Origin: Candidatus Dojkabacteria bacterium
GTDB lineage: Bacteria > Patescibacteria > Dojkabacteria > SC72
DNA: 45,478 nt
Direction: 5' to 3'
Assembly: GCA_023229785.1 (NCBI GenBank)
Contig: JALNYV010000015.1
Coordinates: forward strand, 1 to 45,478
Position numbers and translations under genes: made by a program. Below the pieces are notes generated by a model that was not told where the DNA came from, searched no databases, and was given only the letters and a program-made list of their open reading frames with translations. This document shows, one piece after another, positions 4,423 through 45,159 of the stretch (its first letter is position 1; every line of letters begins with the position of its first letter).

Positions 4423-4629
4423 TTATTTTACACCTCGTTTTAACAACCTTTCAAGTAATTCTATTTCTCTTTCTAATTGCTTTAATTCTCGCTTTGCAGA
4501 TAGAAAAAATCCAATAAACCAGATAACCCCTAGTAATAAAAGGCTTATTCTAGTAGATAGTTTTTCAACCACAAAACTTAATCCCATAAAATACATGGAA
4601 ATAAGTAAATGTAATTCGCTGTTTTTCAT
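4423..4629 (-). CDS. Small membrane protein with C-terminal coiled coil (68 aa)
   Basis: Two hydrophobic stretches (about 7-21 and 28-44) precede a heptad-like Leu/Glu/Arg helix at 46-64 (LKQLEREIELLERLL). The start overlaps the stop of the pentapeptide-repeat gene (ATGA), with an AGGAGA SD seven bases upstream. Membrane-anchored coiled coils of this size are common in viral holin-accessory or superinfection proteins; the role here is unknown. Confidence 0.7.
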   Translation of the reverse strand: MKNSELHLLISMYFMGLSFVVEKLSTRISLLLLGVIWFIGFFLSAKRELKQLEREIELLERLLKRGVK

Positions 4630-5267
4630 TTTAGTTTCTCCTGTATCATTTTCTTGTTGATACCACTTATCGTTTCAAACATTCCATAATTGAAGTTTGG
4701 AAGTTTAAGCGTCTTTGCTATATCTTCTTTTGTTGCCTTGTTAAATCTATTCTTCCACGCTTGTTTATATTCAAACACTCTTAAAAAGCCTTCTGTTACT
4801 GCATACTTAGGATATTTGGCTTTTTCTTCGTCAGTCATACTGCTAACGCTTACCCACTCTGTTAAATCAAAATAAAAGTAGTTTGGAAATATTATTTTAG
4901 TTCCCACATCTTTTATTTTAAACTTTGTTATCTTTCCAAATATCCTTAAATAAGGTTCATCAATGTTTAAATAGCCTGAATTCCTATTGCCTGAATTCCA
5001 ATCGCCTGAATTCAAATTGCCTGAATTCCTATTGCCTGAATTCAAATTGCCTGAATTCCTATTGCCTGAATTCCTATTGCCTGAATTCAAATAGCCTGAA
5101 TTCCAATAGCCTGAATTCCAATAGCCTGAATTCCAATTGCCTGAATTCCTATTGCCTGAATTCAAATTGCCTGAATTCCAATAGCCTGAATTCCAATTGC
5201 CTGAATTCGTGTTGCTGTTCTGCTCGTCTTTTGGTATATACTCTTTCCCATCAACTAAAATTTGCAT
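4626..5267 (-). CDS. NSG pentapeptide-repeat protein with phage-type C-terminal domain (213 aa)
   Basis: After a short N-terminus (MQILVDGKEY) come sixteen five-residue repeats of the form N-S-G-(N/Y/D)-(W/L/R), then a C-terminal domain of about 110 residues. Such NSG repeats joined to a domain with an 'EW...MTDEEK...P' strand-helix and a 'LPNF...F..I(S/T)GI' ending are familiar from hypothetical proteins of bacterial gut phages and prophages, judged from memory. The start at 5267 is chosen for its AAGGAGG SD; an upstream ATG at 5294 lacks one. Repeat number probably varies between relatives. The function is unknown; repeats of this type usually form a right-handed beta-helix. Confidence 0.8.
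   Translation of the reverse strand: MQILVDGKEYIPKDEQNSNTNSGNWNSGYWNSGNLNSGNRNSGNWNSGYWNSGYWNSGYLNSGNRNSGNRNSGNLNSGNRNSGNLNSGDWNSGNRNSGYLNIDEPYLRIFGKITKFKIKDVGTKIIFPNYFYFDLTEWVSVSSMTDEEKAKYPKYAVTEGFLRVFEYKQAWKNRFNKATKEDIAKTLKLPNFNYGMFETISGINKKMIQEKLK
4978..5208. repeat. 15-bp tandem repeat coding for NSG pentapeptides
   Basis: Sixteen 15-bp units run in register, each containing GAATTC (first at 4978, last at 5203). The unit is cctgaattc followed by six variable bases. All units are in frame with the minus-strand gene and differ mainly in the last two codons. Slippage or unequal recombination is the likely origin. Confidence 0.95.
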
Positions 5268-5290
5268 TGTGTTTCCTCCTTTATACTGTT

Positions 5291-5620
5291 TCATAGTTCT
5301 ATTTCTCCATTAAATATTTTAAGTAGTACTATATAACTTCCACCAAAACAAAATTCTTTATCTGTTTCTAATACTTTAAAAATACATTTTTTAGTATCAA
5401 ATGGATTTGAGCCTTCCAGTAATATATATCTATGCCCGTGAAACCAAGTTCTACCATTATGTAGCTTTATATATCTTAATGTTAAGTTCCAATCTAAACT
5501 AAAACTAGTACGTATTTTTGAATAAATTTTTGCACCATTTTCTTCATTCCAAAAATCTTCAAATGAAGTAAGTTCTTTTATTGCCAATACCTCACACTTT
5601 TGTTTTTTTGTTTTATTCAT
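5291..5620 (-). CDS. Hypothetical protein (109 aa)
   Basis: The start at 5620 lies inside the end of the preceding gene, behind GAGGTGATGGT. The protein is beta-rich with many aromatic residues (SFSLDWNLTLRYIKL, then TWFHGHRYILLEG), followed by a Cys- and Phe-containing strand. Three Cys occur, at about 9, 79 and 91. No family or motif is recognised. It directly precedes the pentapeptide-repeat gene. Confidence 0.6.
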   Translation of the reverse strand: MNKTKKQKCEVLAIKELTSFEDFWNEENGAKIYSKIRTSFSLDWNLTLRYIKLHNGRTWFHGHRYILLEGSNPFDTKKCIFKVLETDKEFCFGGSYIVLLKIFNGEIEL

Positions 5621-7325: not shown

Positions 7326-7616
7326 GGCGAATAGCCCAGTATCCTATTAAATAACACAATAATAAGTGTTTGCCCTGCAACATTACGACTATACCTATAC
7401 AATGGACTTCAGGAATCGCCTTTCAGCCCATATAAGCCGTATGGCAGTAAGCAGGTACCATCGGTAGTTGTAGAAAGGTTCAAAGGTAGCTTCAGTCAAT
7501 ATTGCTATTATTTAAGGTACCATTGACTACTTACTTCACGAACTGGAAAAGATACTATACTGGTTAGCTGTTGTTCTTCTATATGTAAATAATGTGTGGT
7601 CGCAGGGCAGACATTT

Positions 7617-7643
7617 TTGTCAGTGTGAGAGAAGGTTTAAATA
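7617..7643 (+). promoter_or_regulatory. Promoter P1: upstream element TTGTCAGTGTGA plus TATA box
   Basis: The 12-bp element at 7617-7628 is followed after seven bases by GTTTAAATAG (TATA box 7636-7643). The ATG at 7670 lies 27 bases after the box, where an archaeal transcript would begin, so the message is probably leaderless. The same element precedes the promoters at 35464 and 39849. Confidence 0.75.
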
Positions 7644-7669
7644 GTAGAATATTTATTATATTAAATAAG

Positions 7670-8194
7670 ATGGGTAAAGATTTGCTAGAGATAGGAAAGA
7701 AGTTTATTTCTGATAACTTGATTAAGGGCGAATATAGAGAAAGCAAGAACATTTTAATGCAAAGTCTGTCTTCTTGTGACGCTTGTCCGATAAAAAGCAC
7801 TTGCACTATTACTCCGCTAATGAAACCAAAAGATAGACTGAAAGGTTGCAGGGAGATTAGAAGCTTGTATAAAGAGAACCTTGAGAGTTGGGGCAATCCG
7901 ATACTACAGTTGCGGATTAGACTTGCTGATATTAAGCTGAAGATACAACAGCAGAGCATAATAGATATTGAGAAAGGAATTACGATGAGTAAGAGGATGA
8001 AGTTGCTTTTGGACTTGGAAAGCAGGTATATTGATAAGTTATTGAAATACTGCCCTCCTGACAGGAAAGATAACAAAGAGATTGGCAGTGTGATAGAAAT
8101 GAGTGGTTATGACGAAACACCAGTGAAAGAAGTAGAAGCGGTGGAAAACGAAGAAAAGAAAGAGGAACCGCATGGAATTGAACAAAGTCTATAA
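7670..8194 (+). CDS. Zinc- and coiled-coil protein, possible small terminase subunit (174 aa)
   Basis: The start at 7670 fits the TATA box at 7636-7643 (leaderless); an in-frame ATG at 7592 lies upstream of the promoter. The N-terminal part has a Cys cluster (SSCDACPIKSTC, then GC), followed by basic helices and a Glu-rich tail. Position at the head of the packaging operon and a helical, DNA-binding-like build fit a small terminase, but no conserved TerS motif is visible. Alternatives are a transcription factor or nucleoid protein. The end overlaps the methyltransferase start by 23 bases. Confidence 0.65.
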   Translation: MGKDLLEIGKKFISDNLIKGEYRESKNILMQSLSSCDACPIKSTCTITPLMKPKDRLKGCREIRSLYKENLESWGNPILQLRIRLADIKLKIQQQSIIDIEKGITMSKRMKLLLDLESRYIDKLLKYCPPDRKDNKEIGSVIEMSGYDETPVKEVEAVENEEKKEEPHGIEQSL

Positions 8195-9107
8195 TATGGA
8201 TTGTTTGGAAGGAATGAAGCAGATGGCAGATAATTCTGTTGATTTAGTAGTAACTTCTCCACCTTATGATAATTTAAGGGATTATAAGGGATATTCGTTT
8301 GATTTTGAAACTACAGCTAAAGAAATATGTAGGATTTTGAAAGAAGGTGGAGTTATTGTTTGGGTGGTTAGTGATAGTGTAGTTGATGGGAGTGAAACAG
8401 GTACCTCTTTTAAACAAGCATTATTTTTCAAAAGTTTAGGTTTAAACCTACACGATACAATGATATACGAAAAAAGTGGTATGTCACATCCAGATAATAT
8501 CCGTTATTATAATATTTTTGAGTATATGTTCATTTTTAGCAAAGGAAAACCTAAAACTATTAACTTAATTGCAGATAAGAAGAATAAGTGGGCAGGAACT
8601 AAAAATTTTGGAAAACATACCCAAAGACAAAAAGACGGTTCTTTACTTGTAAAAGAAGAAAAGACAGTTAAAGAAATAGGTATAAGGTGGAATATATGGA
8701 GATATAATACAGGATTTGGTTATACTACTAAAGATGAATATGCTTTTGAACATCCAGCTATGTTTCCTGAAGCATTGGCAAAAGACCATATTATATCTTG
8801 GAGTAATGAGGAAGATATAATTTTAGACCCTTTTGCAGGTGCAGGTACTACTTTGAAGATGGCAAAACAGAATAGACGTAAGTATATTGGATTTGAAATT
8901 TCTAAAGATTATGTAAAAATATGTCTAAGGAGATTAGAACAAAATATATTACCAACAGAGGAGGTACAAGAAGATGATGTACAAGGAACACAAGATGAAG
9001 AAGGGCGAGAGAGTGGAACAGAGGCTAAAGATGGCAAACAACCTGAGTACGGAAACGAACCAGAGGCTGATAGCGGAGAACGAGGAGAAAATACGAATGT
9101 TCAGTAG
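8172..9107 (+). CDS. Beta-class DNA methyltransferase (N4-C or N6-A), 311 aa
   Basis: Motif IV (TSPPYDN, residues 28-34) precedes motif I (DPFAGAGTT, 219-227), the order of beta-group amino-methyltransferases (N6_N4_Mtase family). The N-terminal YNMDCLEGM and C-terminal 'YIGFEISKDYVKICLRRL' also fit. SPPY is commonest in N4-cytosine enzymes. No partner nuclease is encoded nearby, so it probably protects viral DNA from host restriction or marks it for packaging. The last 50 residues are an unusual low-complexity acidic tail that overlaps a second gene in another frame. A GAGG SD precedes the ATG. Confidence 0.9.
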   Translation: MELNKVYNMDCLEGMKQMADNSVDLVVTSPPYDNLRDYKGYSFDFETTAKEICRILKEGGVIVWVVSDSVVDGSETGTSFKQALFFKSLGLNLHDTMIYEKSGMSHPDNIRYYNIFEYMFIFSKGKPKTINLIADKKNKWAGTKNFGKHTQRQKDGSLLVKEEKTVKEIGIRWNIWRYNTGFGYTTKDEYAFEHPAMFPEALAKDHIISWSNEEDIILDPFAGAGTTLKMAKQNRRKYIGFEISKDYVKICLRRLEQNILPTEEVQEDDVQGTQDEEGRESGTEAKDGKQPEYGNEPEADSGERGENTNVQ

Positions 9108-9129
9108 AAACAACAGGAGGAAGAAATGA
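8974..9129 (+). CDS. Overprinted small basic protein nested in the methyltransferase tail (51 aa)
   Basis: In the +1 frame relative to the methyltransferase, an ATG-ATG start at 8974 follows an AGAGGAGG SD (8957-8964) by about nine bases. The frame stays open for 51 codons and ends in an ATGA overlap with the next gene at 9126, exactly like true gene junctions elsewhere here. The product is a plausible amphipathic, Lys/Arg-rich helical protein (MMYKEHKMKKGERVEQRL at the start). The overlapped methyltransferase tail is low-complexity, as expected of the frame under weaker constraint. Confidence 0.65.
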   Translation: MMYKEHKMKKGERVEQRLKMANNLSTETNQRLIAENEEKIRMFSRNNRRKK

Positions 9130-9455
9130 AATTTAAAATACAACCAAGACAGAGTGGAAAGTCGTATGACATAGCACAAATAATGAAAAAAGACAAGAAA
9201 GCTATATGTATTCAACCAACCGAGAGTTTAAAAAATTATTTTTGTAAAGCATATAACATTTCTAAAGACAGAGTATTTACTGCGGGTGATATTATTAAAA
9301 GAAAAATACCTAGAAATAAAAATGTTTATATTGATGAGATAGGTAGTTTGCTTAATATTTTAATACCATCTGAGATAGTATATGCGACAACTACTAGTAA
9401 AATAGAAGTATCTTTTAAGAGGTATATTAAAGGTTGCGGAATGTTGGAGGATTAA
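9126..9455 (+). CDS. Minimal P-loop NTPase (109 aa)
   Basis: Walker A is PRQSGKS at residues 7-13 and Walker B NVYIDEIGS at about 65-73, with an intervening strand AICIQPTES. This is a mini P-loop protein of the kind seen in phage genomes (short '(K/Q)PRQ(S/T)GKT' proteins), missing the rest of a motor domain. It could help terminase or act in regulation. An AGGAGG SD precedes the ATG, and the start overlaps the nested gene's stop. It sits between the methyltransferase and the histone-like gene. Confidence 0.75.
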   Translation: MKFKIQPRQSGKSYDIAQIMKKDKKAICIQPTESLKNYFCKAYNISKDRVFTAGDIIKRKIPRNKNVYIDEIGSLLNILIPSEIVYATTTSKIEVSFKRYIKGCGMLED

Positions 9456-9456
9456 G

Positions 9457-9894
9457 ATGGGCTTAAAAGAAAGGTTTACTAGCAAACCAATGTTAAAGAA
9501 GATGATACTTGCTACTGCTAACGGCAAAGTGCTAGAGATTTCTTATGAATGTTACGAAATAATAGACAAGATATTGGGAGAGTTTTTGGAAGCTATTACT
9601 AAGAAAGCGGTAGAAAACCTTGTTAAAACCAAAGGTAAGAGATTGGACAGGCGTGATTTTGAAGCTGCCATGGGAATGGAAATAGTTGATATGCCAAACA
9701 GGAAATGTTTGCAAAAGAAGAATCGTGTTAAGATAAAACCTCTTGAAAAGGCAGAAGAACCGAAAGAGGAAGCGGAATTGGAACAAGAAGACGAAGATGT
9801 GGTAATAAAACAAGAACCGATGGCAAGTCTGCAAACAACCGAAGTTCCAGTGCAAATGCCTGAACCGACAACAATACCAGAAGGAGGAAACTAA
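9457..9894 (+). CDS. Histone-fold protein with long acidic C-terminal tail (145 aa)
   Basis: Residues about 12-72 match the archaeal histone/CBF-NFY fold: short helix, a strand loop ending EIS, a long central helix with 'DKILGEFLEAITKKAVENL', the loop GKRLD and a last helix 'RRDFEAAM'. Against my memory of HMfB, the 44 residues from the Ser before helix 2 align without a gap, with K-I-L, I, A, and D-x-E-x-A conserved. The remaining 73 residues are a Glu/Pro/Gln-rich tail, unlike tail-less archaeal histones. A role in packing viral or host DNA, or in transcription, is likely. It lies two bases after the mini NTPase, with a GGAGG SD. Confidence 0.75.
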   Translation: MGLKERFTSKPMLKKMILATANGKVLEISYECYEIIDKILGEFLEAITKKAVENLVKTKGKRLDRRDFEAAMGMEIVDMPNRKCLQKKNRVKIKPLEKAEEPKEEAELEQEDEDVVIKQEPMASLQTTEVPVQMPEPTTIPEGGN

Positions 9895-9896
9895 AA

Positions 9897-10079
9897 ATGG
9901 AAAAGATAAAAGACGAGAAAGAAGTAATAATAGACATACACGCAAAATGTGGAGAATGTGGAAGAAAGATGGTTGAACATTATAGAATTGACAACCGTTC
10001 TAAGAAAGAACTACACAAATTGATTGATTTGTATGCTATACCTTATAATATGGCTTGTAAGAAGTGTTCAAACAAATGA
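9897..10079 (+). CDS. Zinc-ribbon protein (60 aa)
   Basis: Two CxxC motifs (CGEC at about 18-21 and CKKC at about 54-57) frame a charged helix, a typical small zinc ribbon. A GGAGG SD lies before the ATG. The stop overlaps the next ATG (ATGA). Such proteins often act as transcription or DNA-binding accessories in archaeal viruses; the specific role is unknown. Confidence 0.7.
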   Translation: MEKIKDEKEVIIDIHAKCGECGRKMVEHYRIDNRSKKELHKLIDLYAIPYNMACKKCSNK

Positions 10080-10189: not shown

Positions 10190-10332
10190 ATAATTGGGAA
10201 TTAGGAAAAAAGCATAAATATTATGGCAAAGTTGTAATGATGAGAACAATAGAAGGAGAGCCTTATAGATTCTTTATGGATAAAGAAAAGACTATATCTA
10301 TGATGCCTTTAAGTGCTTTAGAGGTTAAATGA
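10186..10332 (+). CDS. Small protein preceding terminase (48 aa)
   Basis: A 48-codon gene is bounded by ATGA overlaps with the mini zinc finger upstream and terminase downstream. The product is basic, with five Met and a beta-like pattern (YYGKVVMMRT...YRFFMD). No motif is recognised. The evidence is the strict junction geometry. Confidence 0.6.
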   Translation: MNNWELGKKHKYYGKVVMMRTIEGEPYRFFMDKEKTISMMPLSALEVK

Positions 10333-11948
10333 CTGAAGAAAAGACAATAACTAAAGTATTTAACAATATGTTAGCAGAAATGAAAGGCGAACTTACTTAT
10401 ACTGATTTTTCTGACGAATTAAAGAAAGAACGAGATAATAAGTGCAAACCGCAAAAGATGCTTAATCTTAATGATTGTGCCAAAGACCCTACTTTGTTCG
10501 CTTATCACATTCTAGGCATTTCTCCGTATGCTTACCAGTTTAAGATGTTTGAAGCAATTAGGACAGGAAAAAAGAGAGTTGCTATGATTACTTCTAGACA
10601 GATTGGCAAAACTGAAGGTTTAGCAATAATAGCGGTTTGGGCTGCTTTTAATAACGCATTTCCAAGCGGACTGCACAGAAACACTAAAGTTCTCATTGTA
10701 AGCAAATCTGAAGAACAAGCCAAGATGATTGTTACTGAAATCAAAAAGTTGATTGACTTGGGTGACAGGATAGTAGAACAGAGAACTAAAGATAATGTTA
10801 CTAATTATATTTCAAGAGAATTGGATGAAGGCAAAACCCAAACGGCTTTCCAAAGTACGTTTAAGAATGGTTGTTATATTAAGTGTATTGCACCTACAGG
10901 AAGCGGAAAAGGTTATACAGTAGATGTACTGATATTAGACGAGTTTGCATACATTCCTGAAGAATTGTTTAACGAAACCTTAGAACCTACTACTTCTGCG
11001 GTTAATGGCATTATTTTAATGGCAAGTACTCCGAATGGTATGCAAGGGTTGGGTTATAAGATATTTGACCCTGAGAACATTAGACAAAATAACAGGTATG
11101 AAAGGATTTGGGTACCGTGGTGGAAGTGCGAAAACCCTAAACAGTTAGAATGGATAAAAAATCAAAAGGAAGAAATGATAGCTAAAGGAGATATTAAGAG
11201 TTTTCAGCAAGAGTATGAAGCAAAGTTTACAACTAGCGAAAGCAGCTTTTTTGACGCTGACAAGGTAGACAAGTCTATTGACAGTAGCTTGGCACACGTT
11301 ATGGACTGGCACACTGAACCTTGTTCTATTGGAATTGATTACGGATTTAAAAGCAGCAGAACAGTTTTAACTATAGTAAGTAAAGGAAAAGACGGAGTTA
11401 TTAGAGAAAGGTTTCAGCATACTTATATTGAAGAAGGAAGCGACTTGAATGTGGATGTTGATGTAGAGAAACTAATGAAGCGGTTTAACATAATTCACGT
11501 AGTACCTGACGATTGCCCTAGTGGGTTTAATCCTAACCAGAAAATGATACAAAAGGGCTTTCCTGTTAAGCTGTTTAACTTTAGAACTGACCAGAACGCA
11601 GGAGAGAGAAACAGAGGATATTATATGCTGAGAGCAGGGTTGTATCAAAACAAAGTTAAGATTACTAAAAATGTAGAATTGATACGAGAAATGAAAAGTT
11701 TGTTAGAGATACATAAAGAGATTAATATTACAATTAAGGGCGAATGTTGTGACCGCACAGATTCCCTATGCATGGGATGTTATCCTTTCCTTGCGGAAGG
11801 TAACGATAGTGGGTTTGGTGTAATAAACGATACAGATATGCCTAAAGAGGAAAAGAAGATAGATAATGGCAGGTATGACAGTTTTGCTGCTACAATGGCA
11901 GAAAAGCAAAAGTATGAGATGGAACAAATTAAAAAGGGTGCATTATGA
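10329..11948 (+). CDS. terL: Large terminase subunit, TerL (539 aa)
   Basis: The DNA packaging motor. The ATPase domain has a Q motif (YAYQFKMF, about 67-74), Walker A SRQIGKT (89-95), Walker B VLILDEFA (200-207) and coupling motif MASTP (231-235). The RNase H-fold nuclease has D337 in SIGIDYGF, the acidic pair at D394-D395 (VPDDCPSG) and D517 in GRYDSFA. Length is normal for TerL. Unusual is a Cys cluster (C473, C474, C481, C484) between the last two nuclease motifs, possibly a metal site. It overlaps genes on both sides by ATGA. Confidence 0.95.
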   Translation: MTEEKTITKVFNNMLAEMKGELTYTDFSDELKKERDNKCKPQKMLNLNDCAKDPTLFAYHILGISPYAYQFKMFEAIRTGKKRVAMITSRQIGKTEGLAIIAVWAAFNNAFPSGLHRNTKVLIVSKSEEQAKMIVTEIKKLIDLGDRIVEQRTKDNVTNYISRELDEGKTQTAFQSTFKNGCYIKCIAPTGSGKGYTVDVLILDEFAYIPEELFNETLEPTTSAVNGIILMASTPNGMQGLGYKIFDPENIRQNNRYERIWVPWWKCENPKQLEWIKNQKEEMIAKGDIKSFQQEYEAKFTTSESSFFDADKVDKSIDSSLAHVMDWHTEPCSIGIDYGFKSSRTVLTIVSKGKDGVIRERFQHTYIEEGSDLNVDVDVEKLMKRFNIIHVVPDDCPSGFNPNQKMIQKGFPVKLFNFRTDQNAGERNRGYYMLRAGLYQNKVKITKNVELIREMKSLLEIHKEINITIKGECCDRTDSLCMGCYPFLAEGNDSGFGVINDTDMPKEEKKIDNGRYDSFAATMAEKQKYEMEQIKKGAL

Positions 11949-12704: not shown

Positions 12705-14135
12705 ATGACAGAATCACAGGATACCGAGATAGCATCACCATTTGACCCGTTAGCAGAAATTAGAACCAGTCTTGGTTTGGCTATGAACTTTTCTTTAGGT
12801 ATGCCTGAAACCGAAGGTCAAAACCCTCCACAGGAATACGAAATTCTAAAACAGATTTATCTTAAAGACCCGATTGTTTCTACTGCTATTGACATTAAGT
12901 CTGAGATGGTTTTGACTAACGGTTGGAATTTTAGAGGCAAAAATAAAAGGGATGTTGAAAAGGCTTATTCTGAGTTTGAAAGATTAAATATGTATGAAGT
13001 TCTTTTGAACTTTTTAAAGCAGGTAGAATTGTATGGTGACGGTTATTTAGAGCCTAGGTATGACGAAGTTAACGGAATAGCAACTACTAAAGTAAAAGAA
13101 GTATGGACTTTAGAAACACCGCTTACCAGAATTAAGTTTGACAAAAACGGTAAGGTTGAAGGTTATTGTCAAGTAAACAGGTTCACTCCAAACGTTACAG
13201 GAAAGATGCCTGAATGGAAATCTGACGAATTGTTTCATTATGCAGAAAACTGGTTTGGTTCAAGCGTATACTCTTATTCTCCTATATTAAGCGTTGGAGG
13301 ACAGTTTACTAATAAAGTTTACGGAAATAACTATATAATGCAGTTGTTTAAGAATTTGCCTCCTAAATTTATGCACATTCTTTCTAACGCAAGTAAAGAC
13401 CAAGCTGCTAATTACAGACAAGCATTACAAGCAGGTAAGTCTAATGTTAATCAAGATTTAGTTGTGTTTACTACAGGCGAAACTACGCAAACTAAGATAA
13501 TGCCTATTGAGGTTAATTTCACAAGCAACGGAATAGTAGAACTGCTTACTTATCTAAGGGAAGAAGTATTGACTAGAATGAGGGTGCCTCCCACTTTACT
13601 AGGGTTGGCAGCAAAAAGCGAAGGAAGAAGCGAACCACAGATGTTTTTGTTTTCTTCTCATATTAAAACCAAACAGCGAAGATTGGCTTGGTTCATTAAC
13701 AAGAACATAATGCCTTTACTTGGTTTAGATAATATCCAAATATTCTTTAGACCTGTTATGTTTGAAGATGCAGAAAAGGTAATGGCTATTGCTAGAAGCA
13801 TGATTGACGCAGGAATAAGGAACGAAAATGGTGAAGACCCTGCATTGAAATATCTTAAAGATAACGGGTTTGATTTGCCTGAAGGAACAGAGATTACTGA
13901 ACCGAAAGAGAAAGACATAGAAGGTAACCCGAGCAGAAAGAGGTTGGGTATGTCTGAAGGCAAAGACCAGAAAAGCAATAAAAGTTCAACTGGCGATAGT
14001 TCTGAAAGCAGAGATAAGTTAGCCAAGGCACAGACTAGAAGTGCTGAAACAGTGGTAATAACACCTGAAGAAGCCATAAAAATGGGCGACTTTGAAAGTT
14101 GGCGTAAAGCGAAAGATTTAATAACTTGTAAGTAA
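12705..14135 (+). CDS. Portal protein (476 aa)
   Basis: The dodecameric portal at the unique capsid vertex. Position after terL and before the protease, length, and the C-terminal half 'LREEVLTRMRVPPTLLGLA' followed by a helical 'FINKNIMPLLGL' segment fit phage portals (SPP1/HK97-like). The last 90 residues are charged and probably disordered. The start at 12705 lacks an SD but is supported by an N-terminal motif (FDPLAEIRTSL, residues 13-23) nearly identical to residues 7-17 of the major capsid protein. A GC hairpin precedes the start. Confidence 0.9.
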   Translation: MTESQDTEIASPFDPLAEIRTSLGLAMNFSLGMPETEGQNPPQEYEILKQIYLKDPIVSTAIDIKSEMVLTNGWNFRGKNKRDVEKAYSEFERLNMYEVLLNFLKQVELYGDGYLEPRYDEVNGIATTKVKEVWTLETPLTRIKFDKNGKVEGYCQVNRFTPNVTGKMPEWKSDELFHYAENWFGSSVYSYSPILSVGGQFTNKVYGNNYIMQLFKNLPPKFMHILSNASKDQAANYRQALQAGKSNVNQDLVVFTTGETTQTKIMPIEVNFTSNGIVELLTYLREEVLTRMRVPPTLLGLAAKSEGRSEPQMFLFSSHIKTKQRRLAWFINKNIMPLLGLDNIQIFFRPVMFEDAEKVMAIARSMIDAGIRNENGEDPALKYLKDNGFDLPEGTEITEPKEKDIEGNPSRKRLGMSEGKDQKSNKSSTGDSSESRDKLAKAQTRSAETVVITPEEAIKMGDFESWRKAKDLITCK

Positions 14136-15374: not shown

Positions 15375-16463
15375 ATGTACGGAACACAAATGTTTGACCC
15401 GTTGGCAGAAGTCAGAACAGCTTTGACTACAACCACAAACGCCGTAGGTGGAGATACAAGAACTACACTTGGCGGTAACGAGATTCAAAAGATGATTGAT
15501 AGGGTTATCGTTGACACGCTTAACAGAAGCACAGGTTTCAGGCAGTTCTTAAAGAGGACACCTACAGACCAGTTGGGTGCAATACACAACCTAAGAACAG
15601 ACTTGGGTAGCACAGGAAAGGCTGCTTTTTATAGTGATGGTGCAGGTGGAACGCCTTACCCGTCAACTAAAGTGCAGATATACTTCCCAGTGAAGTCATA
15701 CAGAAGCGATTATGAAGTTACAGGACTAGCACAGTCAGCGATGTTCATAAACGCATTGGAAGACGAGGCAAGAGATGCACTTGACGCACTCAGAATACTT
15801 GAAGAAAAAGCAATTCTTTGCGGTGCAAACACATCAGCATACGGTTTTGCAAGTTCGTTTAACGGACTGCTTCAGTATATGAACAGTTACGTTACGCTAG
15901 GAGATACTACATCTGTTGGTGGAATTGCAAGAGCATCAAGCAAGACTTACTTGGATGTTGCATTAGTGGCAGCGAACTCTACCACTTCGGCAGCGTTTTC
16001 AATGGCTTTGCTTGACAGTGCTATTGACAAGTCACTGAAACAGGATGATAGAATGGATAACAAAGTATTCCTTATGTCAGTTGAAAGAAAGACAGATATA
16101 TCTCAGTTGTTACAGACACAACAGAGGTACCCAATGACTTTCGTTGAAACTAATTTTGGTTTCAGAGTGGAAGCATATAGGATGTTTCCATTAGTAGCGT
16201 CAAGGTTTATGGACAAGAACGGTTTGACATCAACAGGTTCAGACTTTACATTGTCTTATGCCGACAATGCTATGTACTTCATACCTCTTGACAGTTTGGA
16301 CATGGTTATCTTGAACGGTGTAGACTTTACACACGTTCCAATAAGCGGTTCAGACAGCAACATTAGGTATGATGTGACTGGTGGATACTTCAAGACATAC
16401 GGAACACTGAGAATGAAAAGGTTTGACAACTGTGTATTGATATACAACTTGTCGGCACCTTAG
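15375..16463 (+). CDS. HK97-fold major capsid protein (362 aa)
   Basis: Placed directly after the protease-scaffold with a strong AGGAGG SD. The sequence follows HK97-fold capsid proteins: an N-terminal arm (1-40), an E-loop-like segment rich in Gly and Ser (GKAAFYSDGAGGTPYP), a long spine helix (ALEDEARDALDALRILEEKAIL, with alternating charges), and A-domain strands near the end (LRMKRFDNCVLIY). There is no long delta domain. Residues 7-17 (FDPLAEVRTAL) repeat the portal's N-terminal motif. Confidence 0.88.
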   Translation: MYGTQMFDPLAEVRTALTTTTNAVGGDTRTTLGGNEIQKMIDRVIVDTLNRSTGFRQFLKRTPTDQLGAIHNLRTDLGSTGKAAFYSDGAGGTPYPSTKVQIYFPVKSYRSDYEVTGLAQSAMFINALEDEARDALDALRILEEKAILCGANTSAYGFASSFNGLLQYMNSYVTLGDTTSVGGIARASSKTYLDVALVAANSTTSAAFSMALLDSAIDKSLKQDDRMDNKVFLMSVERKTDISQLLQTQQRYPMTFVETNFGFRVEAYRMFPLVASRFMDKNGLTSTGSDFTLSYADNAMYFIPLDSLDMVILNGVDFTHVPISGSDSNIRYDVTGGYFKTYGTLRMKRFDNCVLIYNLSAP

Positions 16464-38576: not shown

Positions 38577-38659
38577 GAGATAAATCAATTATGGTAATAC
38601 TTATGTTTTTGATAATTTGTGAAACATTAATAATCTTATCTGCTACAGGAAGAATATGA
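38573..38659 (+). CDS. Membrane micropeptide (28 aa)
   Basis: An ATG in an ATGA overlap with the previous stop opens 28 codons that end in an ATGA overlap with the HNH gene. The peptide is almost all one TM helix (MVILMFLIICETLIIL). Double coupling makes it credible despite its size. The function is unknown. Confidence 0.5.
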   Translation: MRDKSIMVILMFLIICETLIILSATGRI

Positions 38660-38997
38660 CTAAATCTAAAACAACAAAGGCTTACCTTAAAAAGCAAGAA
38701 AGGAAAGAGTTAAAACGTCTTGATAAAGAGTGGGCTATTGCTGTCAAAGAACGTGACGGAAAAAAGTGTGTTATTTGTGGCAGAACAGAATATCTAAATT
38801 CCCACCATCTAATTCCTAGAGAAGACCATAAGTTAAGGCACGTAATTGCTAACGGTATCTGCCTTTGTTCGTTACATCACCGTTTTAGTAATATTATTTC
38901 TGCTCACAAGAATCCATTTATGTTCTTAGAATGGTTCCAAATAAATAGAAAAGAACAGTATATGACATTATTAAAGGAAATAACCAATGCTAAATGA
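38656..38997 (+). CDS. HNH endonuclease (113 aa)
   Basis: A basic helical N-terminus then CVICGRTEYLNSHHLIPRE (38-56) and GICLCSLHHRF (67-77): the paired Cys, HH and later HH of an HNH nuclease with structural zinc. It could nick DNA in replication, recombination or host takeover. It stands away from terminase, so a packaging role is less likely. ATGA overlap upstream; it overlaps the next gene by 11 bases. Confidence 0.8.
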   Translation: MTKSKTTKAYLKKQERKELKRLDKEWAIAVKERDGKKCVICGRTEYLNSHHLIPREDHKLRHVIANGICLCSLHHRFSNIISAHKNPFMFLEWFQINRKEQYMTLLKEITNAK

Positions 38998-39472
38998 TAA
39001 TACAGATAACTCAGAAAGTAATATCAAGTTGTTAACTGAATTAGCTAATGCTTATGAACATAAGGGCGAGAAGCTTCACCCTGCGTTTGCTAGGCTAGTA
39101 AATCCGCTTAAACGTGTTGACTGTTTGTTTCACGAAACTACTTGTAAGCATTACTGTAACGAAAAGTGTAAACTGTCAAGTAAAGCAGTTAGGCGAAAGA
39201 ATTGTCCTAGGGAACCGCCAGTAAGGGCTTACATTCCCTCTTCTATTTCCAGTGCAAAACACCCCTTTAGTCAGGTTAGAGAAAGTTCAGGCTTACCCCC
39301 GAATAATCCTCTTTTTCCCCCTGACGACCGTGCCAATCCTGCACTGGAACACAAACATATTCTAAGGGTTGGCAGGGGATTTTATTGCAAAGTGTGTAGG
39401 ATTAGGTTTTATTACAAAAGGAACTATGACTTGCATTTGCAAAGCAAGAGCCATAAGATGAGGTCAGTATGA
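38987..39472 (+). CDS. Cys-rich protein with C-terminal C2H2 zinc finger (161 aa)
   Basis: Residues about 46-73 hold a Cys cluster (CLFHETTCKHYCNEKC), a Pro/Ser-rich linker follows, and the C-terminus has CKVC, twelve residues, H, five residues, H, a full C2H2 finger of the U1/matrin-like type (YCKVCRIRFYYKRNYDLHL). C2H2 fingers occur in several archaeal viruses as DNA-binding proteins. ATGA overlap with the next gene. Confidence 0.7.
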   Translation: MLNDNTDNSESNIKLLTELANAYEHKGEKLHPAFARLVNPLKRVDCLFHETTCKHYCNEKCKLSSKAVRRKNCPREPPVRAYIPSSISSAKHPFSQVRESSGLPPNNPLFPPDDRANPALEHKHILRVGRGFYCKVCRIRFYYKRNYDLHLQSKSHKMRSV

Positions 39473-42314: not shown

Positions 42315-43976
42315 TTAGTTCACTCCTTGAAAATATCCGTTCTTTGGCTCAAAAATATATCCCTCATTCTTGATTTTCTGCACTATCTTGTCAAATTCAA
42401 AAAAGCTATACTTGTCTTTAAACTTGTCATACCATTCTTCAAGCAAAACGTCATGCTGCGGTGCTTCGTCAGCTAACTTCTTGAAATGTGCCATAATTTC
42501 AGATTTAGCGTCAATTTTAGTTTCTTTTTTTGTTTTTAAGCTCATTTCTAACGATACAGCCAATTCCATTCCTGTAAACATTTTAAGTTTTTCTCTTGCT
42601 TTTGCAAATTCTATCCTTTTAGATATTCCTTCATTAGTTCGTTTGGTTTCTATTACTAAATTTAACCTTTTTAGTGCGTGGCTTATCCATTCGGGCTTAA
42701 TCCAATCTACATCATATCCAACATAATCTTTGAAATCCCTATTAAATCTTGCTATTGGCACCCAATCTAACTCAGAATATGGCATTTTAGAAAGGTAGTC
42801 TAAAAACATTACATCACAGCTTTCAGAAATATCGTTTTGTTTCTTTGTAAGCACCATTTCCTTAGCTATTTCAAGCACTTTAAAGAAAATGTCGTTATTA
42901 ACAAAACTAGCCAGAATTAAGATAGGAAAATAAAGTTCCAAATCTCTACCAGTTATATTACTTTCATAAATATACTTAAATATATCATTATTATTTAATA
43001 TATTATTATTTATTATTATATTATTAGTTAGTGTAGGTAGTGTAAGTAGTGTCGGTGTAGGTGGTGTAGGTTGTGTAGGCAAAACTCCATCGGAAATAGA
43101 GGTGTTATTTAATAGGGTTATGTCGTTAGGTATGTTATTTAATATACTTGTGTCCTTAGGTGTGTTATTTAACATACTTTCCTCTTTTCTTTCCCCTTTT
43201 TCCCATAGCCCCCCCTCCGCTACACTACCATCACTACCTACACTTTTTTGCAAAGGTGTGTTATTTAACATAATAAAATTATTCCATTCCCCAATACCCC
43301 CTTTTCCAAACTTATTTTCACAGCATATCTTAATTACATCTAAAGTTCCCCTAAATTCTTCGTTAAAACCTTCCCCTTCTACTAATTTAGTCTTAAATCC
43401 ATCATTTTTGTCTAAAATGAATGAAATACACCTATTTCCTAAAACATCATTCATTCCATTTATATTAGCCATGCAGATAGGGCTATACATTTCAAAATAT
43501 TCAGTAACATAAGTCCTATTGCCATTAGTCATTACTTCCTTTTGTCTAGGCACCTTTAATCCCTTTTTATAGCCAGAATTAAGCAATTCCCTTAAAGTTT
43601 GCAGTTCTTTGCTTTTAATGCTCTCAAATTCATCAATACAATGGCATTTTTGATTTGCTGTCCTGAATAATGTTGCATCTGTTAGGTTTCCAAGCATTTC
43701 TCCATTATTGGCAAAGTTTGCAATAAGGTTTAATAACCTACTTTTTCCTGAACCAGTGGTAGCACAGAAAAATAAGTAAGGATAACTATTAAACTTTTTG
43801 TGTATATAAGTTCCCATTATCCACAGATTTATAATAGGGTAATAGTCTTCATCCATTTCCATATAGAACCGAATATATTTATCAATAAGGTTATAGCAAT
43901 ACTGCATTACCTGTTGCTGTTCTTCGTCAGTTCCACTAGCCAATCTTATCAGTTCTGCCTTTTCAATTTGTTCCAT
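42315..43976 (-). CDS. DUF3631-like replicative helicase/ATPase (553 aa)
   Basis: Numbers below count from the ATG at 43976, chosen for GGTG five bases upstream (a GTG at 43985 is possible). Walker A TTGSGKS lies at about 73-79 and Walker B CHCIDEFE at about 111-118. These and the following 'LRELLNSGYKKG', 'PICMANINGM' and 'VLGNRCISFIL' fit AAA-type helicase domains (DUF3631-like) of virus and plasmid replication proteins. A low-complexity, repeat-rich linker (about 240-340) joins it to a helical C-terminal domain, where primase or DNA-binding parts often lie. No polymerase is encoded, so host enzymes would be used. Confidence 0.8.
   Translation of the reverse strand: MEQIEKAELIRLASGTDEEQQQVMQYCYNLIDKYIRFYMEMDEDYYPIINLWIMGTYIHKKFNSYPYLFFCATTGSGKSRLLNLIANFANNGEMLGNLTDATLFRTANQKCHCIDEFESIKSKELQTLRELLNSGYKKGLKVPRQKEVMTNGNRTYVTEYFEMYSPICMANINGMNDVLGNRCISFILDKNDGFKTKLVEGEGFNEEFRGTLDVIKICCENKFGKGGIGEWNNFIMLNNTPLQKSVGSDGSVAEGGLWEKGERKEESMLNNTPKDTSILNNIPNDITLLNNTSISDGVLPTQPTPPTPTLLTLPTLTNNIIINNNILNNNDIFKYIYESNITGRDLELYFPILILASFVNNDIFFKVLEIAKEMVLTKKQNDISESCDVMFLDYLSKMPYSELDWVPIARFNRDFKDYVGYDVDWIKPEWISHALKRLNLVIETKRTNEGISKRIEFAKAREKLKMFTGMELAVSLEMSLKTKKETKIDAKSEIMAHFKKLADEAPQHDVLLEEWYDKFKDKYSFFEFDKIVQKIKNEGYIFEPKNGYFQGVN
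43102..43191. repeat. 30-bp tandem repeats in the helicase linker
   Basis: Units starting at 43102, 43132 and 43162 begin GTGTTATTTAAYA or close variants, with a fourth, separate copy at 43258. In the protein they give LNNTP-type ten-residue repeats. The segment GTGTTATTTAATAGG (43102-43116) is the exact reverse complement of 7343-7357 in the intergenic hub. Confidence 0.8.
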
Positions 43977-44184
43977 TGTTTTCACCTTTCCCTTTTTGCT
44001 TTAATACCTCTATAAGACCAAGATTTTCATAATGAACAGCCCACGCTTTAATTATGCTTAATTCAAAAGAAGTAGGATTAGGTTTGTTTAGAATTTGTTT
44101 GGTTTTATCCTTACGGAACTGTAGTGCTTGTAATGCTTCTTTAGAATTGTTCCAATTAGCCAATAACTCGCTAGTCTTATCCAT
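43963..44184 (-). CDS. Small helical protein upstream of the helicase (73 aa)
   Basis: The ATG at 44184 follows GGTGGT by five bases. A polar helical chain (MDKTSELLANWNNSKEAL...) with a Lys-rich end. The stop overlaps the helicase start region by 14 bases. It could be a helicase loader or cofactor, from position only. Confidence 0.6.
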   Translation of the reverse strand: MDKTSELLANWNNSKEALQALQFRKDKTKQILNKPNPTSFELSIIKAWAVHYENLGLIEVLKQKGKGENNGTN

Positions 44185-44374
44185 CAAATACCACCACTTC
44201 TTTGCAAAGGAGTGGTTGAGAAAAGGTTTTATGGTTTCTCAACCAAACCAAATTATTATGATGGCTTAACAAGTATTTAAACGTTTCTCTTTCAATTTTG
44301 TTGGCAAATTGCAGGTTTTGCGAGTAACCGCTAACCTTCGCCTTGCCTTTTACCTTTGGTTTATTCCTTGTCAA
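44177..44374 (-). CDS. Possible small basic protein with TTG start (65 aa)
   Basis: A TTG at 44374 overlaps the previous stop (TTGA) behind GAGGGAG and reads 65 codons into the next gene. The start is Lys-rich (TRNKPKVKGKAKV). Against it, the same DNA holds a TATA box and two strong inverted repeats, so the frame may be accidental. Confidence 0.35.
   Translation of the reverse strand: MTRNKPKVKGKAKVSGYSQNLQFANKIERETFKYLLSHHNNLVWLRNHKTFSQPLLCKEVVVFDG
44194..44245 (-). promoter_or_regulatory. Palindrome plus hairpin in the leader of the replication operon
   Basis: CCACTTCTTTG and CAAAGGAGTGG (44194-44215) form a 22-bp palindrome with one mismatch. TGGTTGAGAAA (44213-44223) pairs with TTTCTCAACCA (44235-44245), 11 bp with an 11-base loop. 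Both lie between the TATA box at 44274-44281 and the ATG at 44184. They may be an operator or a leader structure controlling helicase expression. Confidence 0.6.
44274..44281 (-). promoter_or_regulatory. TATA-box promoter of the replication operon
   Basis: On the minus strand GTTTAAATAC follows AGAGAAAC, a BRE-like run. Transcription would start near 44247, right at the hairpin above, giving a leader of about 63 bases before the ATG at 44184. Confidence 0.6.
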
Positions 44375-45159
44375 CTACTCCCTCTTATTCTAATGTTAAT
44401 TAGATAAGTATTAATCTTTTCAATATCTTTTTCGTCAGGATAGTTTGGTATTTTGCTTTTGAGGAACGCTTCATCTAACTTTAAGAACAAGTCAGCAATA
44501 AGTTTGTCTAAAATACCATTTTCCAATTCTTTTAGTTCTTCTTCCTCTAATCCTGCCTTTTTTATTTCAACTAATCTGGTTACTTCAGGTATTTTGAAAC
44601 TTTTGTTTAATTCTGTTATGTTTGGTTGGATATCACCTGATTGTAGTGCGTGGATACCAGCCATAAGCCCCCTAAAGACATACAAATACTTCTTAACGGT
44701 GTGCCTACCTTGCAATATGAACTTCTTATAGTTAAACTCTGCAAGTCCTTTATATGAGCCATAAATGCCCATCTTACCCCACGAGTTGTTAATTAACCGC
44801 CTTAATTCAATGAACTCTGCACTTTTGTATAATTGTGGTGCGTTTAATTCTTCAAGGATATTACAGTTTCCTTGTAAAGCCAAATTAATCATCTTTTTTA
44901 TTTCAAACAATACAATATCCAAATCTTCATTTAGTTTATCTGTATCGTTTATTTTAATGTTGATAACTTCATTAGGAACAGAAAGCCCCAAAAATTTAGT
45001 TTTATCATAAGCAAAGCAACCTCTAATGTCTATATCTGAATTTTTGCTTTCCCAACCATATAAATGGCTACCTGAGATATACATATTAAAAAGTGTGGCA
45101 TTTTTACTTGACGTTTCTTCTTTAATCTTTCCGATTAATTGTATTTGATTTAAGTTCAT
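44371..45159 (-). CDS. RlaP/YcgL-type nucleotidyltransferase (262 aa)
   Basis: A polymerase-beta-fold nucleotidyltransferase with GSHLYGWESKNSDIDIRG at residues 30-47 (GS plus D42-x-D44) and a third Asp at D81 (DIVLFEI). The 'LYG...SD.D.RG' wording is typical of PF10127/RlaP proteins tied to RNA ligase repair pathways. No ligase is encoded, so it may act on RNA ends alone or with host enzymes, perhaps against host RNA-cleaving defences. A GGAGG SD precedes the ATG, and it overlaps the upstream gene by four bases. Confidence 0.8.
   Translation of the reverse strand: MNLNQIQLIGKIKEETSSKNATLFNMYISGSHLYGWESKNSDIDIRGCFAYDKTKFLGLSVPNEVINIKINDTDKLNEDLDIVLFEIKKMINLALQGNCNILEELNAPQLYKSAEFIELRRLINNSWGKMGIYGSYKGLAEFNYKKFILQGRHTVKKYLYVFRGLMAGIHALQSGDIQPNITELNKSFKIPEVTRLVEIKKAGLEEEELKELENGILDKLIADLFLKLDEAFLKSKIPNYPDEKDIEKINTYLINIRIRGSS

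Follow-up and report, generated by a model that had tools for sequence, protein, structure and literature searches.

Which task does a histone-fold protein perform among the DNA-packaging genes of a tailed virus? The question is raised by a contig of 45,478 nucleotides filed under Candidatus Dojkabacteria bacterium (JALNYV010000015.1 of assembly GCA_023229785.1; this whole stretch is called the window below), in which an intact open reading frame (ORF) on the forward strand, running from ATG to stop at positions 9457–9894, encodes a protein of 145 amino acids, P0001. An initial annotation had read P0001 as a virus-encoded histone-fold protein with a long acidic tail next to terminase, which coats viral DNA before or during packaging or alters host chromatin. 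The fold and the proximity to terminase are borne out here by a PF00808 match, the predicted helix pattern, profile matches in the PDB and the terminase genes nearby. As judged from sequence comparison and modelling, P0001 is a member of the histone-fold superfamily (PF00808), with one fold in its 145 residues, and is not a canonical wrapping histone. We tentatively propose, with a probability of roughly 40%, that it would assist DNA packaging as a histone-fold accessory that forms a dimer and does not wrap DNA.

Four homologues of P0001 (P0002 to P0005; 143–148 amino acids, 59–88% identical) were retrieved from 5.8 billion clustered proteins, and a profile search added no family members to these four. 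Residues 26–72 of P0001 align with positions 19–65 of PF00808, the archaeal histone/NF-Y family, without a net gap, since both aligned stretches are equally long. The full-length protein scores 20.2 bits (E = 7.2e-4), just under the curated cut-off of 21.4 bits, and the fold domain alone (88 amino acids, with the tail removed) reaches 21.9 bits, above it. Full-length P0002 and P0003 score 20.6 and 23.5 bits, the latter above the cut-off, while P0004 gave no Pfam match and P0005 just a weak match to PF00125. At E values up to 10, three of the five full-length members match PF00808, and after trimming three match PF00808 and four match PF00125.

Structure prediction and profile comparisons agree with this assignment. 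The AlphaFold model of P0001, of moderate confidence, contains a helix, a long helix and a short helix (residues 10–21, 30–58 and 65–71), and the first 15 of the 37 rows of a Foldseek search of the PDB with this model are histone-fold chains. When the PDB was searched with a profile of the five fold domains, 21 of the 22 matches, all weak (best E = 0.078), were histone-fold proteins; with the full-length family profile, four of six were. Profile–profile comparison places the P0001 family in the same register as archaeal histones. With a profile built from four archaeal histones, the core of P0001 scores 9.8 bits, a value reached by one of the 1852 shuffled cores that could be scored (2000 made). 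The earlier claim of an alignment free of gaps over the first 72 residues holds for residues 26–72 and fails for the whole of 1–72: loop 1 is 1–4 residues longer in the family alignment than in HMfB (three in P0001), and helix 1 is a prediction. We are highly confident that P0001 has a histone fold. The parts of the gene are as follows, all on the forward strand.

9446–9450, forward: GGAGG, Shine-Dalgarno-like, ahead of the P0001 gene (sequence read)
9457–9894, forward: histone-fold protein gene P0001, 145 amino acids (ORF and PF00808 match)
9484–9672, forward: histone-fold domain, residues 10–72, with the three helices given above (Pfam, AlphaFold, PDB profile)
9535–9537, forward: codon of E27, which occupies the loop-1 arginine position of archaeal histones and is invariant in all five members (alignment)
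9634–9645, forward: G60-K61-R62-L63 in loop 2, at the place of RKTV; G60, R62 and L63 invariant in all five (alignment)
9682–9741, forward: residues 76–95, a basic and largely conserved segment that follows the fold (alignment, charge count)
9742–9891, forward: acidic, proline-containing tail, residues 96–145, net charge −12 (AlphaFold, charge count)

The surface by which histones grip DNA is a different matter. The available part of PMC13260811 lists as universal histone signatures the loop-1 RV, the loop-2 RKTV, the R–D clamp and the RT pair. In the P0001 family the loop-1 RV is absent (E27-I28 in P0001, E-V in P0005, with Glu in all five members), and the loop-2 RKTV is replaced by GKRL in four members and by GVRL in P0005. 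The R–D clamp is incomplete, D67 being kept and the arginine replaced by G60 throughout, and GxRxxxxD stands in place of the RxTxxxD motif. Because the loop-1 arginine, RKTV and the clamp arginine are missing, P0001 is best regarded, on its sequence, as a histone-fold protein that is not a canonical wrapping histone. The RT pair may have been replaced by a putative E27–R62 pair between subunits.

The charge of the protein is divided as well. In all five members the net charge of the core lies between +5 and +10, that of the C-terminal tail between −9 and −13. The Glu/Pro tail of 73 residues that had been described is indeed acidic and contains prolines, but it consists of two different parts, because residues ~76–95 (PNRKCLxKK...KIKP) are basic and largely conserved, leaving an acidic part of ~50 residues. 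In the AlphaFold model the tail is unstructured, with no helix past residue 71 and mostly low confidence there.

Compared with the archaeal nucleosomal histones (HMfA/HMfB, HPhA), residues 26–72 of P0001 keep one register from loop 1 through helix 2 and loop 2 to helix 3, together with the clamp aspartate, but lack the RV, RKTV and clamp arginine, have a longer loop 1, and add the basic segment and acidic tail, whereas most archaeal histones are tail-less according to the available part of PMC13260811. Of the groups described from tailed viruses, the alpha3 phage histones come closest, within the accessible portion of PMC11390915; like P0001 they are encoded by tailed viruses and lack the RxTxxxD motif. 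They would differ, on the same partial source, in that helix 3 is truncated (3–4 residues), helix 2 is shorter and the C-terminus forms a helical tetramerisation domain; in the P0001 model helix 2 has 29 and helix 3 seven residues (moderate confidence) and no C-terminal helix follows (mostly low confidence).

The histones of giant viruses (Marseillevirus, Medusavirus) are likewise virus-encoded, and a Marseillevirus nucleosome chain is the first Foldseek row (E = 0.25), but P0001 has a single fold, comes from another class of virus and is without the wrapping signature. P0001 is not a fused doublet; since the giant-virus histones are not all fused, that alone does not rule out the group. Histone H1 is not a histone-fold protein. 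An H1-like protein of jumbo phages, described in the available part of PMC12619734, does not belong to the P0001 family.

In the window, the P0001 gene lies on the same strand between a candidate small terminase subunit (TerS) and the large subunit (TerL). Family-profile scans identified terminase, portal and probable capsid genes, arranged as follows.

7592–8194, forward: TerS candidate, assigned from its position and its conservation (33% identical over 98 amino acids to the gene that precedes TerL in L003, a related virus discussed below)
8172–9107, forward: DNA methyltransferase (N6_N4_Mtase; family match)
9126–9455, forward: small ATPase-like protein (AAA_14, under cut-off; weak family match)
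9897–10079, forward: cysteine-rich ORF of 60 amino acids, possible zinc ribbon (weak matches only)
10329–11948, forward: TerL (family match)
12705–14135, forward: portal protein (family match)
15375–16463, forward: major capsid protein (weak matches)

The placement between a DNA methyltransferase and terminase in the initial annotation is correct as to vicinity; the immediate neighbours are the ATPase-like ORF on one side and, on the other, the first of three small ORFs before TerL. The TerS candidate gave no family match to small terminases in the family-profile scans. The idea that P0001 might itself be TerS was set aside, as it is the gene at 7592–8194 that is conserved ahead of TerL in L003 and, by eye, in L006. 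By eye, the TerS candidate and the methyltransferase (8172–9107) likewise finish in acidic stretches, and such ends therefore do not single out the P0001 gene. The two ends of the contig (1–152 and 45327–45478) form a direct repeat of 152 bases in which three neighbouring positions mismatch, which suggests that the genome is probably complete and was assembled as a circle. Elsewhere the window encodes a 222-amino-acid protein with numerous five-residue repeats, NSGxW/NSGNx (4626–5294, reverse strand), an RlaP-like nucleotidyltransferase of RNA repair (44371–45159, reverse strand; 117.9 bits), and an HNH endonuclease gene followed by a C2H2 zinc-finger protein (38656–39472, forward strand).

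The virus is head-tailed, and its host is probably archaeal. A helicase-like protein (42315–43985, reverse strand) has an archaeal MCM winged-helix match under the cut-off (21.8 against 26.1 bits), and of 50,697 phage records it matches Methanobacterium virus PhiF3 alone, with 28% identity over one third of the protein. Against an archaeal host stands that the best phage-record matches of TerL and the capsid protein are bacterial phages, both distant. A TerL-based scan of GTDB genomes and a portal-based scan of IMG/VR, both with short-word patterns, gave no match. P0001 homologues were likewise not found in phage records (tblastn), in IMG/VR or in GTDB genomes, the short-word-pattern scans being able to miss relatives.

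Is the position beside terminase shared by related viruses? A TerL search returned 14 proteins, up to 81% identical. One of them, P0007 (68%), and the histone homologue P0004 are each listed on a contig of 8102 bases, and their genes may lie together. Another TerL homologue, P0013, has 878 amino acids and contains an inserted homing endonuclease (PF14528) that is probably an intein. The nearest virus in IMG/VR is L003, whose TerL is 53% identical and in which 15 window genes have collinear matches (33–67% identity). Between its TerS-like gene and TerL lies a single ORF of 66 amino acids, overlapping both by a few bases. This ORF has weak matches to histone-fold families (CENP-X, E = 0.012; PF00808, 0.02; TFIID-18kDa, 0.027) and is the sole PF00808 match in a six-frame scan of the record (14.1 bits, E = 0.0019, under the cut-off). 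It aligns best to P0001 without gaps and in the structural register, an outcome equalled by 13 of 2000 shuffles.

The remaining results for this ORF do not single out a histone fold. An FKBP-like family matches it at E = 0.0056, and its scores are not unusual against shuffles by Smith–Waterman (237/2000), by profile A4 (187/1998) or by the archaeal profile (285/1950). A PDB search yielded no histone match, and the family profile A1 found no match in the L003 record. The single-sequence model, one long helix, is uninformative. A scan for further proteins like the ORF retrieved the ORF itself alone, and tblastn with HMfB and with the ORF found no match in the phage collection. On balance of sequence comparison, we regard it as a possible to probable histone-fold protein, and the occurrence of a possible histone-fold gene at this place in another virus lends some support to a link with packaging.

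The search for further cases took the best 80 of 152 TerL relatives, and the PF00808 scan covered 91 records (11 at E up to 1, and 39 and 41 at E up to 0.1). L002, L023, L025/L096 and L027 were left out of it, as were L029–L031 and L077, which repeat scanned records, and L001, scanned separately with PF00808, had no match. Beyond L003, the other 90 TerL-related records, many of them short fragments, contained no open-frame PF00808 match at the E limits used; a match in G035 was rejected on account of an internal stop.

Canonical archaeal histones do occur in other viral contigs. A scan with archaeal histones, using one pattern that holds GRKT and another covering the stretch just after it, found them in six IMG/VR contigs (L106–L111); the presence of GRKT in these is partly due to the search, because one of the patterns contains it. 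The L106 histone (4962–5174; PF00808, 69.7 bits) adjoins a gene for a head maturation protease, after which come genes for capsid, connector and tail, and the L107 histone (4995–5204) adjoins genes with weak connector matches. These two resemble P0001 in that their contigs, too, combine a histone fold with genes for head or connector, but differ in keeping the partly search-selected GRKT and in lying on the strand opposite to their listed neighbours. In L109 (4980–5201) and L110 (5001–5201), large contigs of 152 and 85 kb, the canonical histone lies near an anaerobic ribonucleotide reductase gene in a shared gene order. The contigs L108–L111 could be host DNA, L108–L110 having been read in part and L111 for its histone frame alone. 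Given canonical histones in other viral contigs and their differing placement, archaeal tailed viruses may have acquired histone folds on more than one occasion.

These observations can be combined into a proposal for what P0001 does. As is usual for histone folds, P0001 would form a handshake dimer. It would not wrap DNA in a nucleosome-like manner, given that all five members lack both the minor-groove and the clamp arginine. Contact with viral DNA could instead be made through other conserved basic residues, namely K14/K15, R62, R65/R66 and the PNRKCLxKK segment, and the acidic tail might limit unspecific binding or dock P0001 on a partner such as terminase. The protein would then serve as an architectural accessory at the packaging site, by analogy with Escherichia coli IHF, which helps lambda terminase to assemble on bent cosB (PMC4856287, available part). 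The common element is the proposed role of a small dimeric DNA-architecture protein in assisting terminase assembly; IHF is host-encoded and has another fold.

Other explanations must be weighed against a packaging accessory. P0001 might be a viral chromatin protein that coats viral DNA, replicating or packaged, or compacts it, through an altered DNA-binding surface, for which the histone fold with its basic core and the canonical histones of six IMG/VR contigs, that of L106 among head genes, would argue. However, the loop-1 arginine, RKTV and clamp arginine are absent from every member and the tail is acidic. As none of the five keeps the histone signatures set out in the available part of PMC13260811, the earlier suggestion that P0001 coats viral DNA appears weakened, and we consider this role unlikely. 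Another possibility would be a poison of host chromatin. Histone folds can form heterodimers, and P0001 might pair with host histones, its loop-1 Glu and acidic tail disabling the complexes or stripping histones off DNA. The invariant Glu in place of a DNA-contacting Arg suits such a poison, but the gene sits with late packaging genes and not clearly with early ones. We consider this a less probable reading still.

The best PDB profile matches, which share the register of P0001, include NF-YC/HapE, NF-YB/HapC and NC2 alpha beside histone H4, and would also suit a transcription factor of the NF-Y/NC2/TAF kind that controls viral late genes. The NF-Y and NC2 matches, however, are no better than those of H4, and no second histone-fold partner was found among the window proteins that were scanned; we hold this role to be just as improbable as the poison. 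Finally, P0001 could be an unrelated small helical protein that resembles histones by chance. The histone fold is weighed down by matches that are all modest, by a shallow model, by VIA, which gives unrelated helical chains at similar Z, by a single-sequence PDB search of P0001 with three weak matches, none of them a histone, and by NCBIfam and PHROGs searches that returned no histone match; BFVD gave no credible match. Yet Pfam, the PDB profile, Foldseek and profile–profile comparison all indicate histone folds, the sequence alignments share one register, and shuffled cores almost never attain the archaeal-histone score. A chance likeness is therefore very improbable.

Virus histones are known mainly from eukaryotic giant viruses and one metagenomic phage group, according to the available part of PMC11390915. 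The word "histone" is absent from the available main text of two papers on archaeal tailed viruses (PMC8651126, PMC11705971), as are "phage" and "archaeal virus" from that of a paper on viral histones (PMC9145170). Among the papers covered by our literature search, which left out most subscription journals, none was recognised as a description of histones encoded by archaeal tailed viruses.

To return to the packaging accessory, its fullest form would be an archaeal head-tailed virus lineage that took a histone-fold dimer, encoded with a TerS candidate and TerL, into its packaging machinery and swapped in an invariant Glu in loop 1 and an Arg in loop 2 for the DNA-contacting Arg–Thr pair of histones, perhaps to form a salt bridge between subunits. 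A newly acquired basic arm and acidic tail would let it grip the packaging site and pass DNA on to terminase; as a whole, this scenario is rather doubtful. A histone-fold protein without the DNA-gripping residues, encoded amid the packaging genes of a tailed virus that is probably archaeal, would be a case of the fold put to a different use, and P0001 offers a small protein on which such reuse can be tested.
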